A stretch of DNA of 64,000 bases from the NCBI RefSeq assembly GCF_032854445.1, contig NC_088300.1, forward strand, positions 35,321,608-35,385,607. The letters are read 5' to 3'. Made by a program: the position numbers and the translations under genes. This stretch comes from Liolophura sinensis. Lineage: Eukaryota > Mollusca > Polyplacophora > Chitonida > Chitonidae. Below the pieces are notes generated by a model. The model was not told the DNA's origin and did no database searches. It was given only the letters and a program-made list of their open reading frames with translations. Positions 23,553 through 47,500 of the stretch are shown in pieces. Each line of letters starts with the position of its first letter. Position 1 is the first letter of the stretch.

Positions 23553-26500
23553 CTGATAAAGGGAAGAACAGAACACATATGTTTACAGAAGTTCCAGTAT
23601 ACAGAATGCAGAAGCATAACACTGATACAGAAATCAATAATAAATGACAAACTAGAAGGCAATTCAAGAGCCCAAACCTCCACTACAGCTAAATATAGAA
23701 ATTCCCCTGCTACAGCAAGGTAAAAGAGAAATATGCATTTGTGTCCTATCTGGAAACGAAGAAGAATCCTTAAAGTAAAAGAGAGCAAAAATAGGATGTA
23801 AGGTTCATCAGACAGACAACTGAAAACTATGTGTAAAAATACTTATTTAATACTTATTTATTTCTACAGATTTTTAAAGTGTTGAAAGGCATTCAAATAT
23901 TTGAGTACTACGGTGGGCTTAATGAGCCATACTGATGGTATACAGGAAATCTGATGTCACATCGTCTTTTTTTCCTAATTTTTTCACCAAAAGAATGGAA
24001 TTTTTGGGAACATTATTTCACTCATGTTTTACTCATGGGTAAAAATCGTTATTCAGTGTTATTCAGTGTAAATATTCAGTGTTGATTAGAGTTGGAATAC
24101 CTTCCTGTGACATCAGAGATCCTAAACTCTGATAGTATGGTCCATAAAGCCCACCTTACAATTCAAATGTTTGAATGCCTTCAACTCTTTTAGGTCTTTT
24201 CCTTTAAACAAAATTCCTGGAGCCGAATGACTACCAAAATACAATGTACTGGTGCTTGCCCACGGGTAAAAAATTTCATACATATCAGTGCATAACTTTT
24301 TTAGTTAGGCTGCTTAGAGACAGGCAGAGAAATAAATGTTGACAAAAGCCTATCCACCAAATCCCATCAGATACCTGTCAAACCACCTGTTCATATGCTA
24401 TATAGTATACACCTTGGGATACATGCCACCTGTGAAGACTGACCTGTAGACAGCTGGCGTCTCTGGTGATGAGATCCAGCAGCAGGGTGACACAGCCTCG
24501 GGGGTCAGGGCACAGCCGAATGTCCAACATCTTCTCCAGGAGTATATCCACTGTCAGCACAGCAGGAGCTGGGTCTGTGCAAACACACACATACATGGGG
24601 GCATTAGACATTTCATCAATGTTTTTTTTTTTTTTCCCAACTATTTTACTGTTATTTAATGTCAAGAATATTTCATTTACATTTCTGTCAGCTTTTTATG
24701 AGTGGTGGACTAAAAACATAGGCCTGTGGCAAGCTACTGCCAAACTTTCCCAGGATGATGCATAGTACTGATGGAATTGTACATTCACAACGCGTGCACT
24801 AATGCAAAATGGTTACGCAAAATGCTACGCAGTGCAGTAGGTAAATCGCATGGCTTACTAGGATATGTTACCTGACAGCCAAACAAACCTAATCTGCCTA
24901 ACTCTATACTACGTGTTTGACGTGCACACTGTTCCCCAGCCAGACCTCTCCTATTCCATTCATCCCATACTACACTCACCCATCATTATCCACCTCCTCC
25001 CCTATCCCTGGCCTCCATATCTTACCTGTAACCTTCAGATCAATAGCTGGGAGGATGGAGGTCATCTTCCCCATGACCTCTGCATCCCCCTCCCATCCTG
25101 GGCCTCCATATCTTACCTGTGATGTTGGAGGTCATTCTCCCCTTGACCTATCCACCCTCCCCTCTGTCGACCTCCATATCTTACCTGTGATGTTGTGGTC
25201 AATAGCAGGGAGGATGGAGGTCATCCTTCCCTTGAACTCTGCATCCTCCTCCCCCCTTGTCCCTGATCTCCATATCTTACCTTTGATGTTGGGGTCAATA
25301 GCAGGGAGGATGGAGGTCATTCTCCCCCTCACCTCTGCATCTTCCTCCTCCAGTAAGAGGAAGGTCATCTGCCATATCCTCAAACACGCCAGCCCTGGAG
25401 AACAGGATACAAACCACTGTGGCCATCATTTTCGGTCATGTTCTTTTGAAACTGTATGGTAATAACTCTGAAGTGCGATGCCTGACACCTTTGACCAAAC
25501 ACTTCGTAGATGACAAGGTTAGTCACTCTGAGAGTCCTGTTGATCCTAGAAAGGCTTTGAGGTTTGTTTGCAAAGTATGATGATATTTTGCTGGAAAAAT
25601 GTTTCATTACTAAAAGTAATATTTTATGACCTGTAACGATCTCTAAAAATGTACTTTTTTTTGGTCCAGTTTTAGGGTCATAAACAGTAACAATGGTAAA
25701 TACGAGCAAAGATATAGATGTGGTAAACAACAGATATTCTCCAATGATAATTTTTAAACTTTATTGAAGTTATTATCGCTTAAAAGATCCCTGAAAACTA
25801 CATGAGGAAACCTTAATTCATTTTTCAGCCCCATCAAACATTTGCTTTCTGCAGAGCATATAAACCATGCAGATTGCATCTGGTCCTCTGACATCAAATA
25901 TACTTATTTTCAAACTCAAAATTTATGAGTACATGTAACATTAATAAAAGCCACAACATTATGTTTTTAAGTAAATGTAAAAGAACAAAGCCCACCTAAA
26001 AATTCAAACATTTCACTCCATTTATTTCTATCCAAAAATATTTTTGAAAAAAAAAAAACATAAACAAAAGTATTTTCAGATATTTTTTGCAACACTTTCT
26101 TAGGTCACAATTGTTTTTTACTTGAGGTTTATCTTTATCAGCTTGAATAACATTTTAGTTGACATGAATATTATAATAACAAGCTACATTCTGGCTCATA
26201 CTTAAATATTTGTTGAACTAAATTATTTGATACAAAAAAAATAAAAAGCTTCTGCATCAGAAAAACCTTTTTCCTGACTGATGCTTTTCCTACCTAAAAC
26301 AGCTTGTGGGTCAATCAGTAGGTGATGAGCGTTTGACACAATCACTCCTGCCACGATCAGTTTAACCTCCTCACTCTGCTCTGACTGGCAACAGTCCTCC
26401 AACAACGAAACCCAACGCTGAACCAGGTCACCAGCAGTGGCATTCCCAGCCTGAGTGGATCAAATATTTATGTATATATTGTTTTTATTTGCAGGTGTTT

Positions 26501-29500
26501 TGCTCTGAATTAAAGAACATTTCATTTTTACGATGGTGGCCAGGTGTCCGGGGGAAAACCACCACCGCTGGTTACTGGCAAACCTTACTGTGTGCGAGAG
26601 GAATTCAGCATGAGCTGGACTTGAACTCACAGCAATTATACTGGTGAGAGGCTCCTGGGCAATAGCGCTGTCTTAGCATTCTATCTACTAGGCCACAGAG
26701 GCCTCTTGGACAAGAAAGGGCTGTTAGTTATAATAGTTATAATATACCAAGAACAAGTTCAACAATATCAATTATAATGTGCATCTTAAAATAATCACAC
26801 ATGCAGAAGATTTTCATTATATTATATCTTATCTTGTACTGATGTATGCCTGATAAGAAAATGATGACTACAGAAAGTGATTGGATATAGTGAACACAAA
26901 AAACACTAACCTGAGTAGCTCCCCTTTGATAAATGAGACTGAAGATGGCGTTGTTGAATAATATTGCAGAGCACTTCAGGTCATAACTGAAAATATTAGG
27001 CACATGTCAGAATGAGGGTAAGATCTTTTACAATCACAATTATACTCAAATTTCTTCAAATGGGCGTAATATGACTTGGCAGAAAATTTTTTTTTTTTTT
27101 TTTTTTTGTCATTCCACCTTGTGAAAAAAGATAGGCGTTTTAATATTTTTTTTAATGAAGGCCCTGTCAATTATTGTTAAATCCAGATAATGTAACTGAG
27201 TTCATGGCTTTGAGTCTATGCTGCGACCCTTATTTTCAGGGGTGTGACTATTCACATCGTCATTGGTCACCTTGTTTTCATGGGAAATAAACACACTCTG
27301 ATAAATTACCTGATCAGGGTCAAGAGAAATGCACACCAACAATAATGTTCAACTGATTTTGGAGACACGTGTATTATTTTTTTAGTAAACTCAACGTGGG
27401 AAAATTTAACTAAGGCATCTCAATGATAGTTGTACAGCTACTGAAAACAGAAATGAGTTAATGTTGGTCTGCTATCTGGTCTTTTTTTTTTAGCTATTGT
27501 ATACTTACTCACATATAAAGAATTCAGGTAAGTACATTTTCTACCTGAATAAAAGTGTCATCAGTCAGTGTTCATACATCAGTCTGTGATGCAGTCATTA
27601 GGACCAAATTTGGAGAATAGCCAATTAAACTGGTGTTAACCTATCCTGGGACAAGACTGGGACAAAAGAACTGTCCAACCTTATGATAGTTTAAGATACA
27701 GGTGAAATGTGCACATATGCACACCTGTTTCAGATGAAATGCACATCAATCTAGACATATGCTGAATGTAATCTTAGTATGTCACATGTCCTGCAATTGT
27801 TAACAATCAATTTCAAGCCCATTGGTGTCAAAACCAGCAGAAAGTTTTTAATTACAACATACACATACTTACTTGTCAGTGCCTTGGGCAAGGCCCATAA
27901 CTCTGCTGAATATCTGTGAATAAAAATCACAAGTCATTTATTTATTTCATTGGTGATTTATGCCGTAATAAAGAATGTTTCACTTATACAACGGCAGCCA
28001 GCGTTAAAGCGGGAGAAAACTGGGCAAAGCCCAGGAGAAACCCACAACCATCCACAGGTCTGCCATTTTGAATTTTCACACAAACCACCCACAGCCAAAA
28101 AATTCCTTTCAAATATTAATTTGATCCTCTGGAATATGAAATTAGCAGAAGAACAGCCACAGCCATTGCTATAAACATTAATACAATCATTCCGAAATTG
28201 TGATTTGCACATTGTGAAGTTTTACATGCTTTGTATATATTTACAGATTTATCCGGTGTAAATTCTCATGGATTTTGCTGGATGAGGGGGGGGGGGGGGG
28301 GGGGTGATTGGGGATGGGGGATGGGCTAGAGAGATGATATCAATGTTTAATACCTTAGTGGTGTCATATTTTCCAGTTTCCAATGCTTCAGACAGACAGG
28401 GGTACGCACTTAATACCTCCAACACCTGGGGGATCAAGCGAGGGATGAGGGTGGGGGGATGGGTTAGAGAGATGATATCAATGTTTAATACTTTAGTGGT
28501 GTCATATTTTTCAGTCTCCAATGCTTCAGACAGACAGGGGTACGCACTTAATACCTCCAACACCTGGGGGATCAAGCGAGGGATGAGGGTGGGGGGATGG
28601 GTTAGAGAGATGATATCAATGTTTAATACTTTAGTGGTGTCATATTTTTCAGTCTCCAATGCTTTAGGCAGACAGGGGTACGCACTTAATACCTCCAACA
28701 CCTGGGGGATCAAGAGAGGGATGGGGGTGGGGGGATCAAGAGAGGGATGGGGGTGGGGGGATGGGCTAGAGAGATGATATCAATGTTTAATACTTTGGTG
28801 GTGTCATATTTTTCAGTCTTCAATGCTTCAGGCAGACAGGGGTACGCACTTAATACCTCCAACACCTGGGGGATCAAGAGAGGGATGGGGTGGGGGGATG
28901 GGCTAGAGAGATGATATCAATGTTTAATACCTTAGTGGTGTCATATTTCTCAGTCTCCAATGCTTCAGGCAGACAGGGGTACGCACTTAATACTTCCAAC
29001 ACCTGGGGGATCAAGAGAGGGATGGGGGTGGGGGGATGGGGTAGAGAGATGATATCAATGTTTAATACCTTAGTGGTGTCATATTTTTCAGTCTCCAATG
29101 CTTCAGGCAGACAGGGGTACGCACTTAATACCTCCAACACCTGGGGGATCAAGAGAGGGATGGGGTGGGGGGATGGGTTAGAGAGATGATATCAATGTTT
29201 AATACCTTAGTGGTGTCATATTTTTCAGTCTCCAATGCTTCAGGCAGGCAGGGGTAGGCACTTAATACCTCCAACACCTGGAGGATCAAGAGAGGGATGG
29301 GGTGGGGGGATGGGTTAGAGAGATGATATCAATGTTTAATACCTTAGTGGTGTCATATTTTTCAGTCTCCAATGCTTCAGACAGACAGGGGTACGCACTT
29401 AATACCTCCAACACCTGGGGGATCAAGAGAGGGATGAGGGTGGGGGGATGGGTTAGAGAGATGATATCAATGTTTAATACCTTAGTGGTGTCATATTTTT

Positions 29501-32500
29501 CAGTCTCCAATGCTTCAGGCAGGCAGGGGTAGGCACTTAATACCGCCAACACCTGGAGGATCAAGAGAGAACAGCAGATTAACAGGTCGCAAGTCATTAG
29601 AGGGAAGGCACAAAGCGTAATTTACACCTGGTGAAATTGGATTATTTACAAAATTTTAACTAACTTTCACACAGTCCCTGGGAATGAAACATGTGATATC
29701 AAGACATACTACATTGTATGAGACATGGGATGTCATGCTAGACAGCAGTCAACAGATACATCATCAGAACAAAAGCCATTGTTATTGCTCTTGCAATTAT
29801 CTCAAGTACTGTCCTTGATACTGCTAATCTGACCATGAACATGGACGTCACAGGGTTCAAATCCAGTACATGCTGATTCAGGTGTGGTTTTAAAGGGATA
29901 CAAACTCAACGCTGATTGGCCAATAGTGCAGATACAGTTGTCCGGGTTAAATCAGCCTTGATCACACTTGAATAAATCTGCCAAACCTAAAATTCTGCAG
30001 GAAAAAGCCAGGGCACACTTGCACAAAGCCCTCTAAACCTTAAGAGCACATATGTAACTACTATGGCAACGTAATGCCTACAGTGCTGTTTGCCATGGTA
30101 GTTATGTGCTCTTAACGTTAAGAGGGCTTTGCGGCAGTGGGCCCTGGACTTGCCTTTCTTTCACACCAGCCAATCAGAATAGATTCTGCACCCCTTTAAG
30201 TCAGGTTCTTGGAGAAGGAACATCAGTGGTTTACTCTGATGGCTACAGTTTCCTCTACTACTGCCCAAGTGAGAAAACGATGTTAAACCCCAGTCAGATA
30301 ACAAATTCACGTTCTGGAAAAGCTGATCTTTGCCACTCACCTTAGACAAGCAGGGCTCCCATGTTTCTTGTCCAAAAACCATGGCAATGAGATGAGCAAA
30401 CAAGGACGCCGTATGTTGCCAGTTTACTGAATCTTTGTGACAGGCGTAACTTTTGTTGTCTGTACAGGAATCCATGAAGGTGTTGGCCTGTCGACCTGGT
30501 GTATTATTTGTGGCCTCTATGTTAGCATCCATCCTGGAGATATCTCCACTCTCCACCCCAGTGACTGTGACCTCTGTCAAACAGTTGTGCAGGTGCTCCA
30601 GCACAGCCATTCTCACCTCATAGTGTTCACAGGTGAGAAGACTGACGAGGTCTGGAGGTGCACGGGGTGGGGAAGTGCTCAGGTACAGCTGTGTCACCGT
30701 GACCAGGTACTCTGTCAGGGCAGGGGTCTGGGGGTTGTAACACCTGAACTGGCTTAGCTCAGTGGCTAGGGTTTCACTGATCCGCAGTCTCAGTACCTCA
30801 TGATGGGTGTGGTCAGTAGGGGAGGGAAGCCTTAACACCCTAGCCACTGTCTGCAGCATCACCTTACGAGTTAGCACACAGCTGTTAGATCTGCAAAGGG
30901 AGAGAACTGCAGACTGGAATCCATACCCAGGTTGACAGGATTGAAACAGAGGAATCGATGTGACGTTCAGAAGGGCATGAAAATGAGCATTTTATGTCAA
31001 CCCTTGGTTTCTGAACCGGCAGCTTAAAACCGCTCACCAGAATATTGTGATTCTTTCGTGTTAATTGATACTTTGTATAGTCCGATCCTTTGCTATGTGA
31101 AAATTAGCGTAGTGCCTCTAGTAGTTTGCAGGTACTTTGTTTTAACAGATGATGTGTAAAACTGACATGCTTATATTTACTTTATTTACTTATCTGACTG
31201 TTACACCATACTTTTCTTCCCTCATATGATGTCAGTCAGTTTCATGGGTGGAGGAAATAGGTATCATGAATACATGTAACTATAAAATAATGAAACTGCA
31301 TGCAGTTTTTGGTACGAGGATATTATAAGATATATCTGCGAGTTTTCTATCCATTCTCACAGCAAACATAATACATGTACATATTTTTTGTCTGACTGCT
31401 TTAGAAATACAAAAGAATTTTATTTTATTCATTTGATTGTGTTTTACGCTGTACTCATCAGTATTTCACTTACATGACGGCGGCCAGCATTATGGTGGGA
31501 GGAAACCGGGCAGAGCCAGGGGGAAACCCATGACCCTCTGCAGGTTGCTAGAAGGCCTTCCCATGTACAGCCGGAGAGAAAGCCAGCATGAGCTGGATTT
31601 GAACTCACAGCGACCACACTGGTGAGAGGCTCCTGGGTCATTACACTGCGCTAGCACTAACCCACTGAGCCACAGAGGCCCACAAAATACAAAAATAGAA
31701 AGAAGGCCATAACTGCATTATGTTTTACAATGCTAATGGTCTATATACTTATGTGTAGCCCATGCTGCATGCCGTGTACTGACCTGCCTAGCAGCCACAA
31801 CTTTGGCATAATTCTCTGTGGTAACTCCCCTGCCAGCCTCTCCCTGAGGACGGGAGACAACTGGTCCTGGTAGCACAGCACTTCACAGATCTGAGCAGGG
31901 AAAAATCAGGATTCTAACTGTATATAGATTGTGGTCAACTGTTATTAATATTTCTATGGGTGTATCTTACACTATGTGACTGGCTGCGACAAAGAGCTTG
32001 TTAAGTCACCCTAGTTTGTTAGTTGGCCAGTTAGGCCAATTCTTGACATCCTACCTTTTGACATGGCTCATTCACTTATACAGGGGTCTAGGTGTAAGAT
32101 GACATCAACACTTATGCCGGATATCACGACTAAGGGTATTCTGAATTTGTGATTGAATAGTGACGATGATGTCTTGCATCCTCAAATGGCTTTAGGGGAT
32201 ACTCCTCTTCAATTACTCTCATTCAAATCTCACCGAAAAATTTATCACTAAGAGTTTATATGAAAATTAATATAAACTAGAAGACCAAAGTTCCATGTAC
32301 ACAGACATAAGCCAAGACAACAGAATTTTCTGGGGTTTTTTTTAGTTTTTTTTTCTTCTAGCAAATAGCAAAATCAAAGACTGGAAAGTTGACCATTTCA
32401 GGGTGGTCAGTACTGAAGTAAACACTCCATGGACATTTGATCAAACATCTCTCTCCATGGACATTTGATCAAACATTTCTCTCCATAGACATTTGGTCAA

Positions 32501-35500
32501 ACAATATATCTTTGGCATCCTTGGTCGACATCTTACTTTTTCATCCAATTTTATATACAATTCTTCAGTGTTCTTTCTAGGTAGCTCCTAATAAGGAAAC
32601 AGAATTAATTATGATTGGTTGATTTGTGTAGATACAATTCTATGTTATGCTGTGCTATTTGTACTTTACACATATCGAAGAAGTCAAAGATAACAGCCAG
32701 AAGATTTAACACAGGATCTTGTATCTATACTATCGGCCAATCAGAATGCATTCTTCTCATCTGACCTGTAGCAGTAAGCCATGTATGTGGCTCTGCGTTG
32801 CCACCCCTGGGGCACTGGGTAGTCTGTCCGTGAGATCAACCAGTACACTGATCACCTGGTCCTTAAACACCAATGGCTGAAGAGCACGGGCCGCTATAAG
32901 ACGGATCTTCAACACCGGACTGCTGGAGCATCTGTACAGAGGGGGTAATATGATCACATATGGGAGTGAGTCACAGAAATCAGGCCTAGATTAACACTAC
33001 ATTGATTTCCATTGGCTGCAGCCTGATGTCAGGAGGTTTTCCGTGCAGTTGTTTTCTCTATATACAACAGATTTTAACAAGTGTACAGTAGTCTACACAA
33101 AATGCTGTGAGCTAGTCTTCGAAGAATTCATTCCAAATCAGATTTTGTTTCAACGACATAGTTTAATCAATCATATAAAATTCTGGGTCCTGTTCCAAAA
33201 AAAATTCTTCTGACAACTACCAGTGAAACGTAGGTCTTTACCATATGTTGCTGTGGTAGTTACAATCTACTTAATGGCCTGTCATACTTTGTGGAACGGG
33301 GCCCCGGGTCATTATTATTTTGTGGGATACTTAAAGTTAAATTTAAAGTAACTGAAAACTATGAATAAAATGATTTTTATTTATTTTTTAAAGATGTTGA
33401 AAGGCATTCAAATATTTGAATACTATGGTTGACTTTATGAGCCATATTGATGGTATCTAGGAACTCTGACGTCACATCGCCATATTTTCTTGATGTTCAC
33501 CAGGAAGAAGGAATACCTGGGAACATTATTTCAGTAATGTTTTACTCTATGGCAAAGAGTTGGAAAAACTTCCTGTGACGACAGAGTTCCTAAGTTCTGA
33601 TAGTATGGTCTATAAAGCCCACCCTAGAATTCAAATGTTTGAGTGCTTTTAACTCTTTTCACAAAAATCTAGAAAAATAAATGAAAGTATATTTTTGCAT
33701 AGTTTTAAGTGGTGAATTTAGTGAGGCCTACTTCTATTTTTAGAGGTCTTTTCCTTTAAACTCACAGTACTACTATAACCCTTCAACCATGTCGCTATAT
33801 ATTTAGGCAATTTTTTTTTCTTCAATATAGAGTCATAATATTAAAATTACTTTAAAATTTGAAGTAAAACACCCATACAAATAAGGTGCATGAAATACCA
33901 TCTCGTCAAAATGGCCAAGGATTAAAAACTACATTCTTAAGTTAATCTTTACTATGCAAAAGGGTTGAGGAATTTTCATACCTGATGATATGAGGGACAA
34001 ACGTGGCCATGTTCAGACTGGTGTCTCCCCCCTCCATGACTGAGGGCACCAGGCGCCCCAGTACCATCAGAACAGGGTAGAGGCCAGGGTGCAGTTGAAG
34101 ACAACCTGAGTTCCTGCATAGAAACATAACAACAGTTTCTTCAGTGATATATTTTATTTGAAGTTTGTTTTATGCAATACTCAAGAATATTTTATTTATA
34201 CAAATTTTATCAGTGATTTTATCAGCAATGTTCATATAAGACCACACAAGACCATTGACCAGAGTAAACCACCAACCTAGGGCCAGTTAGTGGTGCACTT
34301 TTTCACGTGTGACATATGTTGTACTGACGGAAGGCAACTGGTCATCAGAGTTCTTCATGGAGGAAACCAGAGTGGCAGAGTAAACGACCAACCTAGGGCC
34401 AGTTAGTGGTGCACTTTTTCACATGTGACATATGTCATACTGATGGAAGGCAATCGGTCATCAGCGTTCTTCATGGAGGAAACCAGAGTGGCAGAGTAAA
34501 CCACCAACCTAGGGCCAGTTAGTGGTGCACTTTTTCACGTGTGACAAATGTCGTACTGATGGAAGGCAACTGGTCATCAGTGTTCTTCATGGAGGAAACC
34601 AGAGTGGCAGAGTAAACCACCAACCCATGGCCAGTTAGTGGCGCACTTTTTCACGTGTGACATACGTCATACTGATGGAAGACAACTGGTCATCAGCGTT
34701 CTTCATGGAGGAAACCAGAGTGGCAGAGTAAACCACCAACCTAGGGCCAGTTAGTGGTGCACTTTTTCACATGTGACATATGTCATACTGATGGAAGGCA
34801 ATCGGTCATCAGCGTTCTTCATGGAGGAAACCAGAGTGGCAGAGTAAACCACCAACCTAGGGCCAGTTAGTGGTGCACTTTTTCACGTGTGACAAATGTC
34901 GTACTGATGGAAGGCAACTGGTCATCAGTGTTCTTCATGGAGGAAACCAGAGTGGCAGAGTAAACCACCAACCCATGGCCAGTTAGTGGTGCACTTTTTC
35001 ACATGTGACATATGTTGTACTGATGGAAGGCAACTGGTCATCAGTGTTCTTCATGGAGGAAACCAGAGTGGCAGAGTAAACCACCAACCCATGGCCAGTT
35101 AGTGGTGCACTTTTTCACGTGTGACATATGTCATACTGATGGAAGGCAACTGGTCATCAGTGTTCTTCATGGAGGAAACCAGAGTGGCAGAGTAAACCAC
35201 CAACCTAGGGCCAGTTAGTGGTGCACTTTTTCACATGTGACATATGTCATACTGATGGAAGACAACTGGTCATCAGTGTTCTTCATGGAGGAAACCAGAG
35301 TGGCAGAGTAAACCACCAACCTAGGGCCAGTTAGTGGTGCACTTTTTCACATGTGACATATGTCATACTGATGGAAGGCAATCGGTCATCAGTGTTCTTC
35401 ATGGAGGAAACCAGAGTGGCAGAGTAAACCACCAACCTATGGCCAGTTAGTGGTGCACTTTTTCACGTGTGACATATGTCATACTGATGGAAGGCGATCT

Positions 35501-38500
35501 GCATGTAAGACAAAACAAGACAGCACCATCAACAAATTACTGTCCTCTAGGCCCTGTGAATGGAAATAGTCTGAGAATAAGATTGAACTGATGTCTCTTG
35601 TAACCTACATGTATATTTAGTGTTTGTTTGGTTGTTTGTTTGATTGGTGTTTTACTCTGTACTCGAGAATATTTCACTTATACCACGGCAGTCAACATTA
35701 TGGTGGGGGGAAACCTGGGCAGAGACTGAGGGAAACCTAGGACCATCTGCAGGTTACTGACAGACCTTCCCACGTACAGACAGAGAGGAGACCAGAATGA
35801 GGCCTTCATGTAGTGACTGAAAGGTAGGTGCTTACCAAAGTTTATGGATCATAAGAATAGCTAAATAGCAAAATGACTTATTTTTTTATTTGACCACAAT
35901 CAAGAATATTTCACTTAAACAACTGCCATCTTAATTGGTATCATAATGGCATTGTTGTCTGCATCAGCAGTCAACATACTGGAGACATAACTGTGCGCAA
36001 ATGTTACGTAACTGGTGACTGATCGAAACTTTTCAAATAGGATATGTTGGAAGCTCACTGAGGTATGCTACAGGTATATTTTTGGTTTTTATCCTGAAAT
36101 TGGTTTAAGGCACTGACTCTGACTTCTCAATGATTTGTCAGTGACAATAAGATCAAGAAACCATGAAATATCAGAATCTAGATAACATCATTTGCGATTC
36201 GCACTTAAGAGGCAGGCTTGGATGCTTTCTGATTTATCTGCATTTAGTGCAGATGAACCCCTCTGCACATAAAATTACAACATTTTGGAAAAGTTTCTTT
36301 GTGCAAAACTACTATTTCAAAAGCAAGTCATTCAACATCACCCCATATAATATTCATTTGATGAGTTGTTATATAGTTTGTTATTTTATGCATAAAATAC
36401 CTTTACATGAATGCAGAACTTCTTTCTTTTAAAATGAAACTAAAATGTAATGCTAGCTCGAACATTTCTCAGGCTAACATATCTAAGATTAAATTTACTC
36501 ACCCAATATTGGAGGTGGCGTCTTCAAGCTGCTTTAACAAGAATGGATAGAGTGATGGAAAACGCTGGAAGAAGTTCCTACCTGTAAGACTGAACAGTAA
36601 AAGAAGAACTTTACCTTCCGCTCATTGACTTTATGCATTATCCTGCACAACAGTACTTAAATGTGGCAATGTGACTGTACATTAACCATGTGTTCTTCAA
36701 TGACTGTAAGACTGTGTGCATCATTAAGTGCTCAGTGTCACTAAGGCCCCACAATTATTGAATCTCCGTCCACAACTTCTTTATCCAACACCGGGTTTAA
36801 AAGCATGTGCAAAGTATTACATGTTACCTTAACAGGTACAAAGATAATTTTTTTCCTAAGATTCTTTGTAACACAATTCCTAGTGATATAAATAACAGTG
36901 TTAGAATATTAGACATACCAGTTTTTTCTCACCGTGCCAGACTGATCCTTGCTGCGCTTCACCCCAAATATTCGCGTTATCAGAGCACTGAATAATAATG
37001 TGGAAGAATTTCTGATCTGGAAAAATATGAGAAACAAATGAACACTAAGTTGTGCCTCCAAGAAATTCTCCACCATTCAGGGTTTGTTTTTGCTGTATTT
37101 TATCACAACTATGAGATGGTAACTCCCGCATCCTAGAGAATACACGGTGTCGCACCCAGAGTTCAATATCTCTGGAAGATTGAACAGGTCAAAAAGTTTC
37201 ACATAAATATGCGAAAAAGGTTGAAGAAATATGGACATTAACATTCAGGCAGTTTTTTGAAAAATTAAGGTCTTTGAATGGATTTAGAAGTTAGGACATA
37301 AAAAAAACAACCAGCAGTTCAGTATTTCCTCACACCCAGCATTAATCATGTATTACTCTGAAGGGCCTCATGGTTAGCATGCAAGCGGTGCAATGACCCA
37401 GGAACCTCTCCCCAATGTGGTCGCTATGAGTTCAAGTCCAGCTCATCCTGGCTTCCTCTCCAGTCGTATGTGGAAAGGTCTGCCCCAGGCTTTGCCCAGT
37501 TTCCTCCCACCATAATACTGGCTGCCACAGTATAAGTGAAATGTTCTTGAGTACGGCGTAAAACACCAATCAAATAAATAAATAAATGAATAAATTACTC
37601 ATTATGTTCCTTTGTTATGTTCAGCATATGTAAGCAGAGTTACGTCATTACATAACTGTAACATAATGTTTTAAAACATGAGTACTGTCTGGTTACAACT
37701 GTTTACATGTAACTGAATGAGCCATTGTTATCCTAAAACTACAAGCTTTTTGTTATTACTTTGAAAACTTTATAGTGCCTCTGCACTCCTTTGTTTACAC
37801 TTTAAACCCTATATTAAACCCTCCAGTCAATGTTACAACATTGCCATACTTGGTGAAAAATTAGTTGAATTTTGTAATTAGTATTTTATTACAATATCAC
37901 CCACAGGACAATTATGTTTACACATGTTAGAATGATGGCACCACTAAACCAGGGGTACTTACAGCCCAGTCTGGTGAGGAGAAGCCTAGAACAGCCACCC
38001 TGAGCCCATCCGCCAGGTATGGAGTGACATCCTTACTCAGCTGACTGTCACAGTACAGAGCCCTCAAGATGTTCACAGCATGCACCTGTACAACACACAG
38101 GTAAGCCTAAAAACCAGGACCTTGTTTTCAGTCTTTTTTTTTTTTTCAATATATGGCCTGCCTGACATGTATGGGTCATGTGAAAATGCCTTTTCGTCCA
38201 AAAGACGATAAACATGAAAAACCTCACAATACAACATGCGTGTCATATTACATGTTATTGTATGACATCAGTTATGAGCCAATCAAATTTCTGGCTGTGA
38301 CGGTTTAAAATCATAGGAGAACAAGGTAGTGTTTGATGCTAAGATTCCCAACAAGAACACAGAGGTCATTTGTACAGGACTTTCTCGTTTTCCAAGGAAT
38401 TTCACACTTGAGATACAGATCTTAAATTTCCATACAGTACTAAAATTTTTCAGGTTTTATATTCTTGGATAACAATTTTTATAAATCTAATATTGACTGA

Positions 38501-41500
38501 TATTCATGATATATTATGATACTGATTTCTTACTAATGAAACTTCTGTGTGTCACACATGAGACAGTTCATCAATAACAGTGGTTATTATAACAGCACTC
38601 TGGATTCTTGCACTTGTAACCATGACAGTCATTGTATATGTGAACAGTTCTGGAGTATAGTGTCCGACAACAATCAAATAAATAAATATTAATGAAACTT
38701 GCCTTTGGGAATTTGCCTTCAAATACACGTTACCAGCTGCTAACCAGAAATGCAATTTGGATACTTCATTCACCAAAATGAATAAATATATATTCCTGTG
38801 AGGTAATTTGTGTATTGGGATAAACACCTGAGCATCAGTGTTAGGCCGTAGATATTCCTCAGTCTGTAATGCTAGCCCTAGCAGCTGTGTCATCGTCTCC
38901 ATGAACTTTGACCTCCCCATCACGTCAGGCTCTGTCCCCAGAACAGCCTGGTAGGAAAACAATATTTATAATAATGACAGGAGAAATCAGATCATTCTAT
39001 TGGAAATGAAATGCAAAAGTTTTCATAATTTTTCTGTTAAAAAAAAAATGCAAGCGTTCAAGGGCAGGAAAGCAGGCAAAAGCTGTACATTTCCGAGGAT
39101 AGCCATACTGCAATCAAATAAGAAGATCTGTGTCATACGTTGACAAAAATTACATAGTATCCTCTTACAGCTGACAATTGACAGTAGACATGGAGAGCTA
39201 GAAGAATAAGCTGAATCAGTATTTCAGGAGTCTCACGAGTTCACGCAGGCCCCAAATCTATTACACGTATGTCTCCTAAACCTGCATGAATTTGAGACAC
39301 TCCTGAAATGTTTATTCAGCTCATACAGAAAGCACATCAAATCCATACATAATTACCTCCAGCAACTGAAGAGTTCAGGGTTCTAGTAGGGTCCAACATG
39401 TTCTTACCTGAATAAAGAAGGGAACCCCAGCACTTCTTCGTGTAGCGCAGAGTTTTGACATGCCATCTTCTGATTGGATGTCTTGCATCACCTGACTGAG
39501 CCATTTCTCTGGAAGCTCTCTCACACAATCTACTGGGCTCCTACAGGCACAAAGTAAACTGCTCATGTATTCACATTAATATCTAATGATTTGAGTTAAG
39601 AAATAATTTGGCCGATCGTCAAGAGGAGCCTATATCGTGAAGATAAAAATTCCCTACCACTGCATATATCCACACCCCTCCAACCCCCATACACAAACAC
39701 ACACTCCTTCCCTATACTCACCTCCACAACATGCCCATCATAGTGATAAACCCGGCATATGCCATCTCAAACGCACCTCGGTGTTTCGACTCCAGGAGCT
39801 GGTTGATGAAATACTCGCCTATGTCCAAAATCTGTTAACAAACACCTCACAGTTGAGAAAACAGCATTTCTAAGGGCAGGTGAGTGCAGTTAACTCCCAA
39901 CTTTTCCCAATGCATTTCTGCTTGATGAAACTAATTCTATAACAGCATCAACTAATAGCAATTTTAGGGGTATCTCATATACCAATCACAATGCTCATTA
40001 TGTTTCTTTCAAAACTTATATAACACTTTTCATTCCATATGTAGCTGTTTTCTTTTGTCATGGATTCGGCACTGTTCTGTCATCCATAAAAATTTGGAAG
40101 ATTCACAAAAACCACTTTGTAAAATATGGTTCTGTGGAAAAAATATTCAATTCACTTTTTGAATATATCTTGTATCTATTAATTACCCCCTCTGTTTTGT
40201 GCATGTTTTCTGTTAAAGGTCAGAAATTTTCAGAACTGACCAGAGTTGTTTTGATACCAATCATGTAGATTCCAGACTGACCACTGTAGCCTTAGAAGGA
40301 GTACAGTTTAAACCCAGAAGGCTGAGAAGAACATTTGTACATTTAAATGTTAAGACAAATCCTAAACAGCATACTAAGAAATAAATTCCATCAAATGTAA
40401 ATCCATGTGTCGCTCTAGCTGAGTTATCTCCCTTGATGCACCTGATGTCTGATTATCAGAGTTATCTCCCTTGGTTCACATATTGTTTTATAGTTCTCTC
40501 CATCTGTTTTCTAACAGTATCAGAATTATTACCCTTAGTCTACCTGTTTTCTGACTATCCGCATTATCTCCAATGCTCCACCTGTTGTCTGACCTTATCA
40601 TGGTTATTACCTGCTGATATGAGATCATCCCTTGTGTCTGCTCCTCCTCTCCAGGGGGGATGACAGGAGCCTGGACAGCTACTTGTCCTAACAGAAGGGA
40701 CACTTCCTTAGTGGTCCTCCAGCAACAAACAACCAGGTATTCGGGCATCAACCCCACCTGACCCTCCCCTGTGCTGCCTTCAGTCGGGGTGGTGCCTCCT
40801 TCCTCAGAGCCACACACCAGCCCCAGGTCTCCCCCTGTCATAATAAACACACATACTGGGCTACAACTCTGTCCAACTAGAAATCATACAGGTGGTCAGC
40901 TACAATAAAAAAACTTGGCCTAGTTTTGGTGTGATTTTATGCATCTAGCAGCTGGTTAGTTGAGAAACATAACAGTATTGTTGGAGACTTGGAAGCAATT
41001 TGTAAAAGAGTTTCAATCTGACAGATGTCAGCAAGACGCCAGTATATATTGTCACATATTTAATAGTTTTAACTGCTAATGTATACAGGTCTCAGAAGGG
41101 CTGAGCATTAAGAATAAGTGGTACCATTTCCAAATTAACATAATATTGATTTTACTCTATATAGTATATTAATGCTTAATGTAAAATTTGTTTGTTTCCT
41201 CTCAACACAATTAGGTCACATGAAAATCAAGCTGAAAATGAGTACCATTTTACTTCTTCTTCTTCTAGCACTCAAATAAATTTTCCTGATAAGAACGGAT
41301 AAATGTTTATGTCAGACTATACAAGCATGGTAAATCATTTCTAACAATGAGTAAGTAACCATTCTATGATTATATATAACACTGTCTCAATCTAATCAAT
41401 TCTCAATCAATTTTCACCTTTAATGACCTCCAATGGAATATTTCCCTCTGGTGAGGAATTCTGCACAATAGGGGAGACAACCTCAGCAGCATCACAACAG

Positions 41501-44500
41501 CACTGAATCAAGTCTGCCAACAGACCCCTCCATCTTACATCAGTCTTCACACTGCTGGAATTTCACATTCATATTGTTATTTACAGTCCGAAAAAAGCAT
41601 CAATGAGTCAGTTTATCTGAACATGCATATTTCTTACAGTATCTTTCCTCACCTGACCAAATTTACAGGTGAAACAAGTAATAGTTATTTTACATTGACC
41701 TATTCGCTCGCTCATTTTACACTAGATATTTCACTTAAACAATCACAATCAAGTTCAGACATGGAAGAAAATAAGAATGAAAACCAAATTAATAGGAAAC
41801 TGACAAACCCCCAAATGTAGAGGCCAGCATGGAATGTATCTATGTATGGTTGGAGTTTAACGTCATACTTAACAACTTGCCTGGCATGAGAGCATAATCT
41901 CATTTGTCAATAGCAACTTCACCACGTATACTAACAGTGACTAGTAAGTTATTTATTTATTTGACTGGTGTTTTACGCCGTACTCAAGAATATTTCACTT
42001 ATATGACGGCGACCAGCATTATGGATGGAGGAAACCGAGCAGAGCCCGGCAGACACCCACGACCATCCACAAGTTGCTACCAGACCAACAGTGAATATCG
42101 ACCACTATCAAAATACAAAGGTCATGTCATAATGTAGTGTGTCACAATGACAGAGATGTGTATTGACATGAAAGTTCCCAAACAACTTTCATGATAGAAG
42201 CCGGGTGTGCTGATATGCTGCTTACCTGAGCGGTAGATCCGTCAGGATGTAGCGAATACAGTGTATGACTGGATAGAGTGGGCCAGAGGCAGCTGCCCTT
42301 AACAGGTTACTCCTGGCCACGGTTACCTGCTCACTCAACCTCTTCAACAACAACCTCAGCAACAGGTAAACTGTGTGTTGCGGAGAGGATTGATCAAGTT
42401 CGTGGTCAAGTGACAGACCACCAGGTGAATGGTCAGAAGAAATGGACTTGTGTGTACCAGCATTGAAGCCAGCCTTGTCAAAACTGTCTAAGATGAGTGT
42501 GAGAAAGCGTGGGTGTTTGACAACCAGAAGGAAGATATAGGCGGCAGTCGTACAGTCCTGGGGCTTGGTGCTCACACACAACGTCAATGCAGACTCAAAC
42601 ATAGCCCTTGGCCAATTAGTGTCCCACTGCAAAAAAATTACACTCTGTTCTTAATGTGAGAATATTAAGAATTAAAAATATTTTTGCTAACTACATGTAT
42701 TAAATTGACAGAAGATGGATCTGGAATGTATAAAATTTGAAAGTCCCTTTACCACCATGCAAAAAAAAAAATATTACGTTCTTATATATCTTTTAATATC
42801 TTTTGAAGACTTCCAAAACAGCACACATATTTAGTAGTTTACCTTGTCAATGAAGTTGGCCTTCAACAGATGACAGAGAATCTTGTAACTCTGGGTTTTG
42901 TTGTCTTCAAACTTATCTGTCAGACATTCCAGCAGTGAGCGGATGTCGTGACCAGAGATCAACGTCTCCAGCACCAAAAACTCACTAAGCAAGGCTGAAA
43001 CACATCAGAAACTCAATAAGCAATACAGAAACACACAAGAAACTCACAGAGCAAGACACACGCCAAAAACTCATTAAGCGTGGCTGAAACACACCAGAAA
43101 CTTAGTGATCAAAGATAAAACACACCCGACACTTGCTGATCAAAGCTGAAACATACCAGAATATTGCTGATCAAAGCTGAAACACACCAGAAACTCAATG
43201 AGCAAAGCTGAAACACACCAGAAACTCAATGAGCAAAGCTGAAACACACCAGAAACTCAATGGGCAAAGCTGAAACACACCAGAAACTCAATGAGCAAAG
43301 CTGAAACACACCAGAAACTCAATGAGGAAAGCTGAAACACACCAGAAACTCACTGTGCAAGGCTGAAGCACACCAGAAACTCACTGAGCAAAGGCTAACA
43401 CACACCAAAGTCTCACTGAGCAAGGCTAAGACTCACCTACCACTCAATGAACAAAGATGAAAGAAACTGAATGAGCAAGGATGAAACACACCAGAAACTG
43501 AGTGGGCATGACTGAAACACACCAGACACTCACTTCAGAGGAAGGCTAACACACACCAGAGTCTCAGTAAGCAAAACTGAAACTCACTTAAAACTCACAG
43601 AACAAAGCTGAAATACTCGGGAAACTTACTGAGCATGGCTGAAACACACCAGAAACTCACTGAGCTAGGTTGAAACACACCAGAAACAGTGCATAAATAA
43701 TGATTGCTTGTACTCACATGTTTGTGTCTTGTTCTTTTTGAAAAGCATATCCATGAGTAGAGACAGGGCAGAGAGGGCTGTGGTTCTCCTGGCAAACCCT
43801 GCGCCAGGGAAGAGACAGCTCAGCAGGTGTCTCACTAACCAGTCAATGAACACCTGAGGGGGGTGGGGAATGAAGACTTATAATAAATAGAGCTTAGAAA
43901 CGTCTTCCACTGTGCGCCATTCCTATTGTCTCTGTCATGGCTTTGTGAAAACATGTTATATTTTGAAAAGCTTATGAAGTTAATATATTAATTAACTGAT
44001 ATTAGCAATTTTCCATTTCTATGATGGAGTGAAGGGTTCTAGGAGGAGCAAGCCTGAGTACTCGGGATAAACCACTGGCATTCATCATGAACCTGACAGC
44101 CCTCCTGATTGAGTGAGTGAGTGCTTGGGGTTTAACGTCGTACTCAACAATTTTTCAGTCATATGACGACGACCCCTCCTGATTGAAAGGCAAGGCCAAA
44201 AGATGACCATCTTTAAAAATCTACTAACACAATATTATGGTAAGTTCAGACTGTGCTTACTCCTGGCATCATACTAACTTGAGTTTTGCTTGTTTATACT
44301 ACCAATTTGTACAATGACATTTTGAATCAGTTCTGAGCTTTTTCATTTTGCAATGTCAGCTATCAAGGTTGTCAAAACACTCTGCAGATGAATATATTTG
44401 GTTCACCATTTAACACAGTTAACTTTTTAAACATTAATACTTGAAGGAAATATACCCTAAAGCATGTAGCTACACCTAATATTTCATCCCCATATCCCCA

Positions 44501-47500
44501 TGAGGCAAACAAATCTCTTACAAAATTACCTTTGCTGCAGAAACGTACATTTTGCCATCACCCATGATATCACCCTACCTTCCAGCTAAACCTCAAAACA
44601 CCATTTTAAGCGGTGCCTCTATGGCTCAGTTGGTTAGCACGCTAGTGCAGCATAATGACCCAGGAGTCTCTCACCAATGCGGTCGATGTGTTTAAGTCTC
44701 ATGCTGGCTTCCTCTCTGACCGTATGTGAGAAGGTCTTCCAGCAACCTGCGGATGGTCGTGGGTTTCCCCCGGGGCTCTGCCCGGTTTCCACCCACCATA
44801 ATGCTGGCTGCCGTTGTATAAGTGAAATATTCTTGAGTACGGCATAAAACACCAATCAAATAAATAAATAAACAAATAAATAAATAAATAAATAAACCTT
44901 TCTAAGGTCAATACAACCCTCAGAATCACAAAAAATGTTGGAAATCTAAAATTTTTGGTTATTTACCATGTAGTGGCCTATGCCTTTGCCCTTTGCTTGG
45001 CTCCCAGGAGAGCTCCCAGACTTCCTTAAGATGGCTGCTGCACTTTCTCCCATACGAACCAACAACTACAAAAGATTCAAAGATCCAAAAATCCATGAAT
45101 CTCATAAACAGTAAATGGACTGAATTGACCCTAAACCAATCTGGATCTGAAACCTATATACTGTATGAAATGAAGAGTAAAAAACCAATTTGGTACTATA
45201 TGACTCTGGGTCTGAACACTGTATAAGGTATGAATCTGTGTCAAGACACTGCTTCTGGTATGAATCTGTGTCAAGACACTGCTTCTAGTATGACTCTGTG
45301 TCAAGACACTGCTTCTAGTATGACTCTGTGTCAAGACACTGCTTCTAGTATAACTCAGTGTCAAGACACTGCTTCTAGTATGACTGTGTCAAGACACTGC
45401 CTCTAGTATGACTCTGTGTCAAGACACTGCTTCTAGTATGACTCTGTGTCAAGACACTGCTTCTAGTATGACTGTGTCAAGACTGCTTCTAGTATGACTC
45501 TGTGTCAAGACACTGCTTCTAGTATGACTCTGTGTCAAGACACTGTTTCTGGTATGACTCTGAGTTTGGACACCATATGTGGTTTGACTCCGAATCTGGA
45601 CACAGTACATAGGTATAACTCTGGGTCTTGATACTCTATAGTGTAATAGGTATGAATCTGGGTAAGGACACTGTGTATGGTATAACACCAGGTTTGGAAC
45701 TCCTATGTAATACAAGTGCATATCTGGGCTTGTGACCAGTACTTGCAATGAATCCAGGTAACAGTCCCATAATTACCCATTTGTGTGCAACCTTTTCCAT
45801 TTTTTCAGGTTTTCCCGCAGGTGAAGCACAGCTTCACTGTTCTTACCCTTTTCAGGAAGGAGAGCAGCGCCTGTCTGAAGGAAGCTGATTGGTTGTTCAT
45901 GTTGAGGCTCAGGAAGAAGCGAATCAGCTCCAGCTCCCTCCCCTCTATCGACTCGGAAGTCTTCTTGTTCTCACATAACAGAGCAAAGGCATCAAGTCTC
46001 ACCTGGTCGAGGTGAAGCAAAATATCAGCACACATGAGGGGGAAAATAGTGGGAAATACTGTTATTTTATCCAGCATAATTTAACCAATTTTGAGACTGC
46101 TGTATTTCATGTAAGGTTTAGTATTCATCGCAAGACACATTTTGCTTCACTCTGATGGATTCATTCACTTTATAGAGTTTTTTTGTGAAAACATGGACAA
46201 AATTTGTGGTCATTTGGGGTAATTTACTTAAGGTTTATTGTCCAAAAGGATCATTTTAAGGCCCCTATGTGTTTCCAAATGTGCACTTTTGTATACCAAA
46301 CATTAGGTGAAACACAATACTTTATGTAAGCACTAAGTGAAAGTGAAAGTGTTAAAGTGTTAAATGGATAATAAACAGTCTAGGGAAGAGTGGCTCATTC
46401 CTGCAAGGCACACAGAAACAAAGAGGTCTGTTAAAAAATAGCAAAAAACACCACCAAATTTTCTCTAGAAGTGCCTCAAATGATGGCTTATCATCAACCT
46501 GGACTGGGGACTACTGAAGTCATACCAAGTGCAAACAAGTTGTCTAAACCAGTGTTTTATGAATGTGTAGGGAGTAAGGATATACACATAATGACTGTTT
46601 TAGAGATCATTAATTCAGATGTATTTCCTTCACCTGGTCATCATAACATGACAAAGCTCTTCTCAGCAGGCCTGGATCTATCACATCAAAGATCTTGTTT
46701 CCGTTGTTAGCTCCATGTCCTGCTCCCAACTGTTCCAACTGTCCCACAGCTCTGGATCTTCTCATACACATAACCAAGGCACCCAGGTTCACATTGTCCC
46801 AGTAACCTGAACAGAAGCAATTCATCTGCTCAGTCATTTTATTTATTTACTTGATTGTTCTTTAAGACCATAGAAATTTTCACTTGTCCGATGGCAGTTA
46901 GTTTTGTGCCCAGGGTAAATCAATCCCCTTTGGCAAACTTTGTCACCTGTGACATACAGGTATGCCAAAGGCTACACACACGTCCCCAACAGCTTACTTA
47001 GCTGTTACTCGTTAACTCAAAAGGTGTTAAATGCTGTACTTACAAAGGTAATATGATCCCTGAAATGAGACTTACAAAATGACTATCTTACAATGGAAAC
47101 ACCAAGTTACAGAGCATATTCTGTAACTTACAAAATGACTGCCTTACAATGGAAACACCAAGTTACAGAGCATACTCGTTGTTAAAATGTACTGTGAAGG
47201 TACAGTATGTAGGTCAATTCTGCCTTTGATATTGCCCAAAAGTAACAAACATTCAGCATACTTCAGCAGATTGATGAATTTCTTTTTCAATAAGTTTTTG
47301 TTTCTTATCAAATCCACTGTTTATAGTGTTGCTAAAAAATTGTACAGGATAAACTCACCAGAGCTCTGAGCTGATAAACGTTCAATCATACTGCTCAGCA
47401 CATCTTTTTTTATCTTCAACAATCGTGGAAGCACATACTGTCAATCAGATACATCCCCAATTAACTCCTTGTCATGTCTCATTAAATTCTGACACTTTTT

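Follow-up and report, generated by a model that had tools for sequence, protein, structure and literature searches.

Nine tandem copies of a complete THADA exon in the chiton Liolophura sinensis, likely a tolerated minisatellite

Arrays of whole exons are already known. In the SmPoMuc mucin genes of Schistosoma mansoni, a 27-bp exon and its flanking introns are described as repeated in tandem, a single gene having as many as about 20 units (PMC2576457). The kringle IV-2 variable number tandem repeat (VNTR) of LPA has a unit of about 5.6 kb that contains two exons, of 160 and 182 bp; all copies are reported to be translated, 2–36 units having been measured in the plasma protein (PMC11201333). 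Here we describe an array of nine copies of one 72-nt exon of THADA, a conserved tRNA-modification cofactor, in a 64,000-nt stretch of the genome of the chiton Liolophura sinensis (contig NC_088300.1, positions 35,321,608–35,385,607; the window, to which all coordinates refer). The array is distinguished by the very short unit, the spacers, which lie below the sampled introns of the species, and the host, a conserved solenoid protein with a single module. No description of the THADA exon array was found in the literature among the matches listed.

As far as the SmPoMuc source describes that system, the likeness lies in one small frame-neutral exon repeated in tandem with its flanking introns, and the difference in units of about 1 kb, a mucin gene family and many repeats per transcript, whereas the THADA array has a 137-bp unit, a single conserved cofactor as its host and one annotated module. 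With LPA, as described, it shares a repeat unit that includes whole coding exons and introns, but here the 137-bp unit holds one exon and the spacers are below normal intron size. Branch points at 25–41 nt from the 5' splice site are reported to enforce mutual exclusion of exons 4a and 4b in human OGDH (PMC7969005, which also cites alpha-tropomyosin), and the branch-site match of the THADA spacers, at 28 nt, falls inside this range; unlike OGDH, the array has nine near-identical exons with no known isoform difference, and its exclusion is predicted from geometry and allows non-adjacent joins. Drosophila hydra likewise has nine homologous tandem exons, described as mutually exclusive initial exons (PMC9013439); those are alternative first exons in the untranslated region, several flanked by transposons, whereas the THADA copies are internal coding exons within a minisatellite. 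Finally, the minisatellites CEB1 and CEB25 resemble the array in their G-rich unit with one short-loop quadruplex motif per repeat, and such minisatellites are reported to be unstable in yeast (PMC5491262); instability is known for CEB1 and CEB25 and is, by analogy, predicted for the THADA array.

The array provides a natural test of how a genome tolerates a conserved exon that is present in many near-identical copies. Its spacers, well below the sampled introns, make it a case for asking whether intron size alone enforces a one-of-nine choice, and it suggests how a minisatellite may come to include a complete exon, possibly a first step to a mutually exclusive exon cluster. The units of CEB1 and CEB25 are not known to contain an exon.

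We interpret the array as an exon minisatellite that is tolerated, with about one of the nine copies spliced into each transcript, and assign this reading a probability of roughly 0.6. About one copy per transcript is the likely usage, as in the NCBI gene model, which uses copy 1, because spacers of 65–66 nt would be too short to splice between neighbours. A tolerated minisatellite of this kind is likely a better description of the locus than a length-variable repeat domain.

A complete THADA exon repeated nine times

An earlier reading of this DNA, made from the letters alone (the sequence-only reading), had placed nine open 72-nt THADA exon copies, each with acceptor and donor, at 28354–29552, and both the coordinates and the identity of the gene proved exact. 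The copies lie on the minus strand, each open, in phase 0 and with intact AG and GT; CAG stands immediately before and GTATTA immediately after every one of them. On a simple consensus measure the donor common to the copies, AAG/GTATTA, is weak, with a score of 0.8 where the acceptors reach about 5. Numbered together with the spacers in order of transcription, the copies are copy 1 (29481–29552), copy 2 (29343–29414), copy 3 (29206–29277), copy 4 (29069–29140), copy 5 (28931–29002), copy 6 (28794–28865), copy 7 (28630–28701), copy 8 (28492–28563) and copy 9 (28354–28425). The arrangement is a tandem exon duplication, in which a whole exon and its splice sites recur head to tail (n = 9). It is equally a minisatellite, as the whole array (28309–29569) was resolved by Tandem Repeats Finder into 9.0 head-to-tail copies with a period of 138, or of 137 over part of its length (score 1865), which is the upper end of the minisatellite unit size range.

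The spacers measure 66, 65, 65, 66, 65, 92, 66 and 66 nt. The regular spacing of 65–66 nt that had been reported thus holds for seven of the eight and fails for spacer 6 (28702–28793, minus strand), which separates copies 6 and 7, is 92 nt long and contains an internal 26-bp duplication. Although parts of the 66-nt spacers read open in frame, the three spacers of 65 nt and the one of 92 nt shift the frame, so that the spacers were rejected as coding sequence and the array as an intronless coding repeat. A crude gene finder merged some copies through the spacers between them and overlooked a 41-nt exon; the exact spliced walk was used instead.

The closest protein is P0001, annotated by NCBI as "tRNA (32-2'-O)-methyltransferase regulator THADA-like [Liolophura sinensis]" (1042 aa) and the one protein of this species among the matches listed. 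It is a THADA homologue of the THADA/Trm732 family (Pfam PF10350, PF25150 and PF25151), and the window reproduces it: residues 13–1042 were recovered exactly by a spliced walk, with the first 12 residues coming from 44565. In this walk the upstream exon (30341–30890, minus strand, 550 nt) ends in phase 0 and the downstream exon (27873–27913, minus strand, 41 nt) starts in phase 0. Both meet the module at codon boundaries (CLSK / VLAV...DTTK / IFSR), confirming that the exon is complete and frame-neutral and that any copy number keeps the frame. A position of about residue 1,612 had been given for the module; in the Haliotis rufescens orthologue it begins at residue 1603, so that the estimate was about right.

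No two of the nine copies are identical, pairwise differences ranging from 1 to 6 of 72 positions, and the array DNA has a single matching place in the 609,464,459-base assembly. The published assembly (Liolophura japonica) is described as built from HiFi reads with a mean length of 8,347 bp at 14x (PMC11068029), and on these figures the mean read exceeds the 1.26-kb array. The array is real and unusually compact.

Spacer size, branch sites and the probable use of one copy

P0001 holds one module, encoded by copy 1 alone and joined directly to both flanking exons; the introns around it measure 788 nt before and 1567 nt after, the latter spanning the skipped copies 2–9. The P0001 model (26226–44565, minus strand) is a partial THADA, with a non-THADA first exon at 44565 and an end that runs into intron past 26294. 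Exons similar to Haliotis THADA are colinear from about 53 kb to 23 kb, beyond both ends of P0001, and the THADA gene therefore looks intact.

The 18 introns of the annotated THADA model range from 181 to 2389 nt. To sample intron size in the genome, kinesin motor exons were used, giving 132 matches and 51 intron estimates, the smallest of 165 nt. Inside the 132 matches, the read-through surpluses were 402, 393, 231, 171 and 147 nt and then 48 nt and less; no surplus of 49–146 nt that could hide a short intron was found in them. Introns read exactly at the kinesin loci were 165 nt (L002; alternative 161 nt), 186 nt (L003) and 237 nt (L005), with a further one at L004 allowing two alternatives of 227 or 233 nt; the shortest exactly read intron, also at L005, was 162 nt (a 153-nt alternative has a weaker donor). 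The 65–66-nt spacers are well outside this range. The sequence-only reading had taken them for introns, but their splicing is doubtful in a species whose sampled introns measure at least 162 nt.

The positions of candidate branch sites may point the same way. Spacers 1, 2, 3, 7 and 8 have the best match, CTCTAAC, at a distance of 28 nt from the 5' splice site, and spacers 4, 5 and 6 have lost it. In human extracts, about 50 nt are reported to be needed between the 5' splice site and the branch point (PMC6692369), and a motif scan, which yields candidates only, found in seven of the eight spacers no yUnAy that keeps a distance of at least 50 nt from the 5' splice site and of at least 15 nt from the 3' splice site. 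Adjacent copies would exclude each other by distance, as do the mutually exclusive exons of alpha-tropomyosin or OGDH, and this exclusion of neighbours would leave THADA mostly with one ancestral module.

Several points weigh against this interpretation. The distance rule allows non-adjacent joins, for example of copy 1 to copy 3, which could give minor longer forms. In the 92-nt spacer (spacer 6), the distances of a branch-site candidate are 58 nt to the 5' splice site and 34 nt to the 3' splice site, and spacers 1, 7 and 8 have a borderline one at 46 and 20 nt. The limit of about 50 nt was measured in mammals and would apply to chitons by analogy; shorter introns are spliced in other animals. 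P0001 is an annotation rather than a transcript and incomplete at both ends, and homologues with one module may have guided its prediction. In addition, the excess of silent changes among the copies, described below, could reflect protein-level constraint on several of them.

Proposed growth of the array and variation among copies

The 137-bp unit, present nine times over, comprises a whole THADA exon together with its two splice signals. A pattern scan identified nine G-quadruplex consensus motifs on the plus strand (28286–29452): each of the eight spacers holds one, and the ninth lies just beyond copy 9 (28286–28325); an example is GGGATGGGGTGGGGGGATGGG (plus strand), with loops of 2, 1 and 2. 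Nine of the 12 such motifs of the window, both strands considered, fall within the array, one per unit, and the motif is a plausible cause of expansion. The repeats would have grown through slippage during replication or through unequal exchange, favoured by the G-rich quadruplex-prone tract in each spacer, in a slippage-prone minisatellite whose unit happens to cover a whole phase-0 exon. The captured exon, with its 72 nt, phase 0 on both sides and splice signals of its own, would have made such growth tolerable.

Among the copies, 12 exon positions vary, of which seven are silent and five amino-acid-changing. This is a mild excess of silent changes (P = 0.011, 0.026 or 0.051, depending on transition bias), in keeping with the earlier description of the changes as mostly silent or mild. 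In the spacers, however, 4 of 66 columns are variable when the 92-nt spacer is set aside, a level no higher than that of the amino-acid-changing sites, so that the selection signal is unclear and nothing firm follows from it. That no copy has a stop, which the sequence-only reading had stressed, is correct, all copies being open, but weighs little because the chance of no stop after 12 random exon changes is 0.42–0.65; the absence of stops was rejected as evidence.

Possible alternative uses of the copies, and other repeats in THADA

Inclusion of many or all copies, which would give the THADA of this chiton an enlarged helical insert of variable copy number, is unlikely. All nine copies are open and in phase 0 with intact AG and GT, silent changes among them exceed expectation, and the TTK-VLEV joins between neighbours would resemble the final TTK-IFSR join, at the start of a helix. 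The homologues do not favour this alternative. A search with a long query scored 7992 candidates and found 169, of which the best 120 were aligned; the module was counted as present when 9–27 residues stood at the site, and nine of the 120 were too partial to count. Among the 111 THADA proteins with both flanks aligned (P0001 counted), 108 have one module and three have none, and more than one module was found in none (0/111). The annotated protein itself has one, and a repeat region ranging in length from 0 to 216 residues, as envisaged by the sequence-only reading, finds no counterpart in it or in the aligned homologues. A search for multi-module proteins with a 297-residue query (nine spliced modules and flanks) gave no match at E <= 0.001 among 7998 candidates scored; it covered only proteins of about 163–520 residues and excludes short records only, because P0001 and full-length THADA fall outside the length window of the query. 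Spacers outside the sampled intron range and the poor branch-site geometry in seven of eight of them also argue against inclusion of many copies, and spacer variation that does not exceed that of the amino-acid-changing sites weakens the selection signal in its favour.

The predicted structure is a further point against a large insert. P0001 was modelled with AlphaFold2 at a mean pLDDT of 80.3, the ten-residue blocks from 901 to 940 reaching 88–96. In this model, the module corresponds to residues 905–928 and comprises the second half of helix 899–910, a short helix (915–921), a turn of four residues and the beginning of helix 926–939. Both exon edges fall inside predicted helices, and the exon thus belongs, in the model, to the folded helical solenoid and forms no side loop, contrary to the HEAT-side loop that had been suggested. 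Up to 192 extra residues in this structured solenoid would probably be disruptive. The best solved-structure match of the model is human THADA (8y2o); the sequence alignment to it ends where P0001 residue 735 aligns to human residue 1490, before the module. Since the tRNA- and FTSJ1-contacting residues named in PMC12145424 are at human residue 1449 or lower, the module appears, in sequence order, to lie beyond the residues named there.

Somewhat less probable is a cassette, in which the exon is often skipped altogether and copy number matters little. The weak donor would fit this, and so would three molluscan models that lack exactly the orthologous module and keep both flanks (P0007, Argopecten irradians isoform X2; P0011, Batillaria attramentaria; P0017, Nucella lapillus), which suggest that the module exon may be skipped as a cassette elsewhere in molluscs. 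These three are predictions too, however, the exon is kept in 108 of the 111 homologues, and in the model the module completes two helices at high confidence.

We regard as improbable a THADA solenoid tuned by a VNTR, in which the quadruplex minisatellite would vary exon number between individuals and a parity rule set by spacer length would restrict joins to non-adjacent copies (1-3-5-7-9) or to copies 6 and 7. Messages would then contain between one and five or six helical modules of 24 residues each, adjusting the tRNA 2'-O-methylation cofactor.

It is likewise improbable that copy 1 alone is used, owing to a better upstream branch site and a proper long intron, with copies 2–9 as decaying pseudo-exons. 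P0001 does use copy 1, and the upstream intron has TGTTAAT and CTCTAAT 26 and 44 nt, respectively, from the copy 1 acceptor; that copies 2–9 are free of lesions would be expected by chance anyway. Against this, copies 2–9 retain usable splice sites, CTCTAAC is kept ahead of the acceptors of copies 2, 3, 4, 8 and 9, and silent changes among the copies are in excess.

Expansion of a single exon by assembly error is very improbable, for although tandem repeats are a known hazard and the HiFi coverage is given as 14x, all nine copies differ, the spacers differ in length and the 1.26-kb array is much shorter than the mean read of 8,347 bp (PMC11068029).

Other repeats were observed in the same gene. 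At 24979–25425 (minus strand), the 3' end and donor of another THADA exon recur with a period of 96 bp (32 codons). The donor core GTAAGATATGG is present in four places (25280, 25184, 25116 and 25025), so that alternative in-frame donors are possible at this exon. A 31-bp minisatellite of 23.3 copies (42972–43687) reaches into the 5' end of the THADA exon at 42994–42843, and a 116-bp tandem repeat (34260–35495; 10.7 copies, 95% matches) makes up about half of the 2,389-nt THADA intron.

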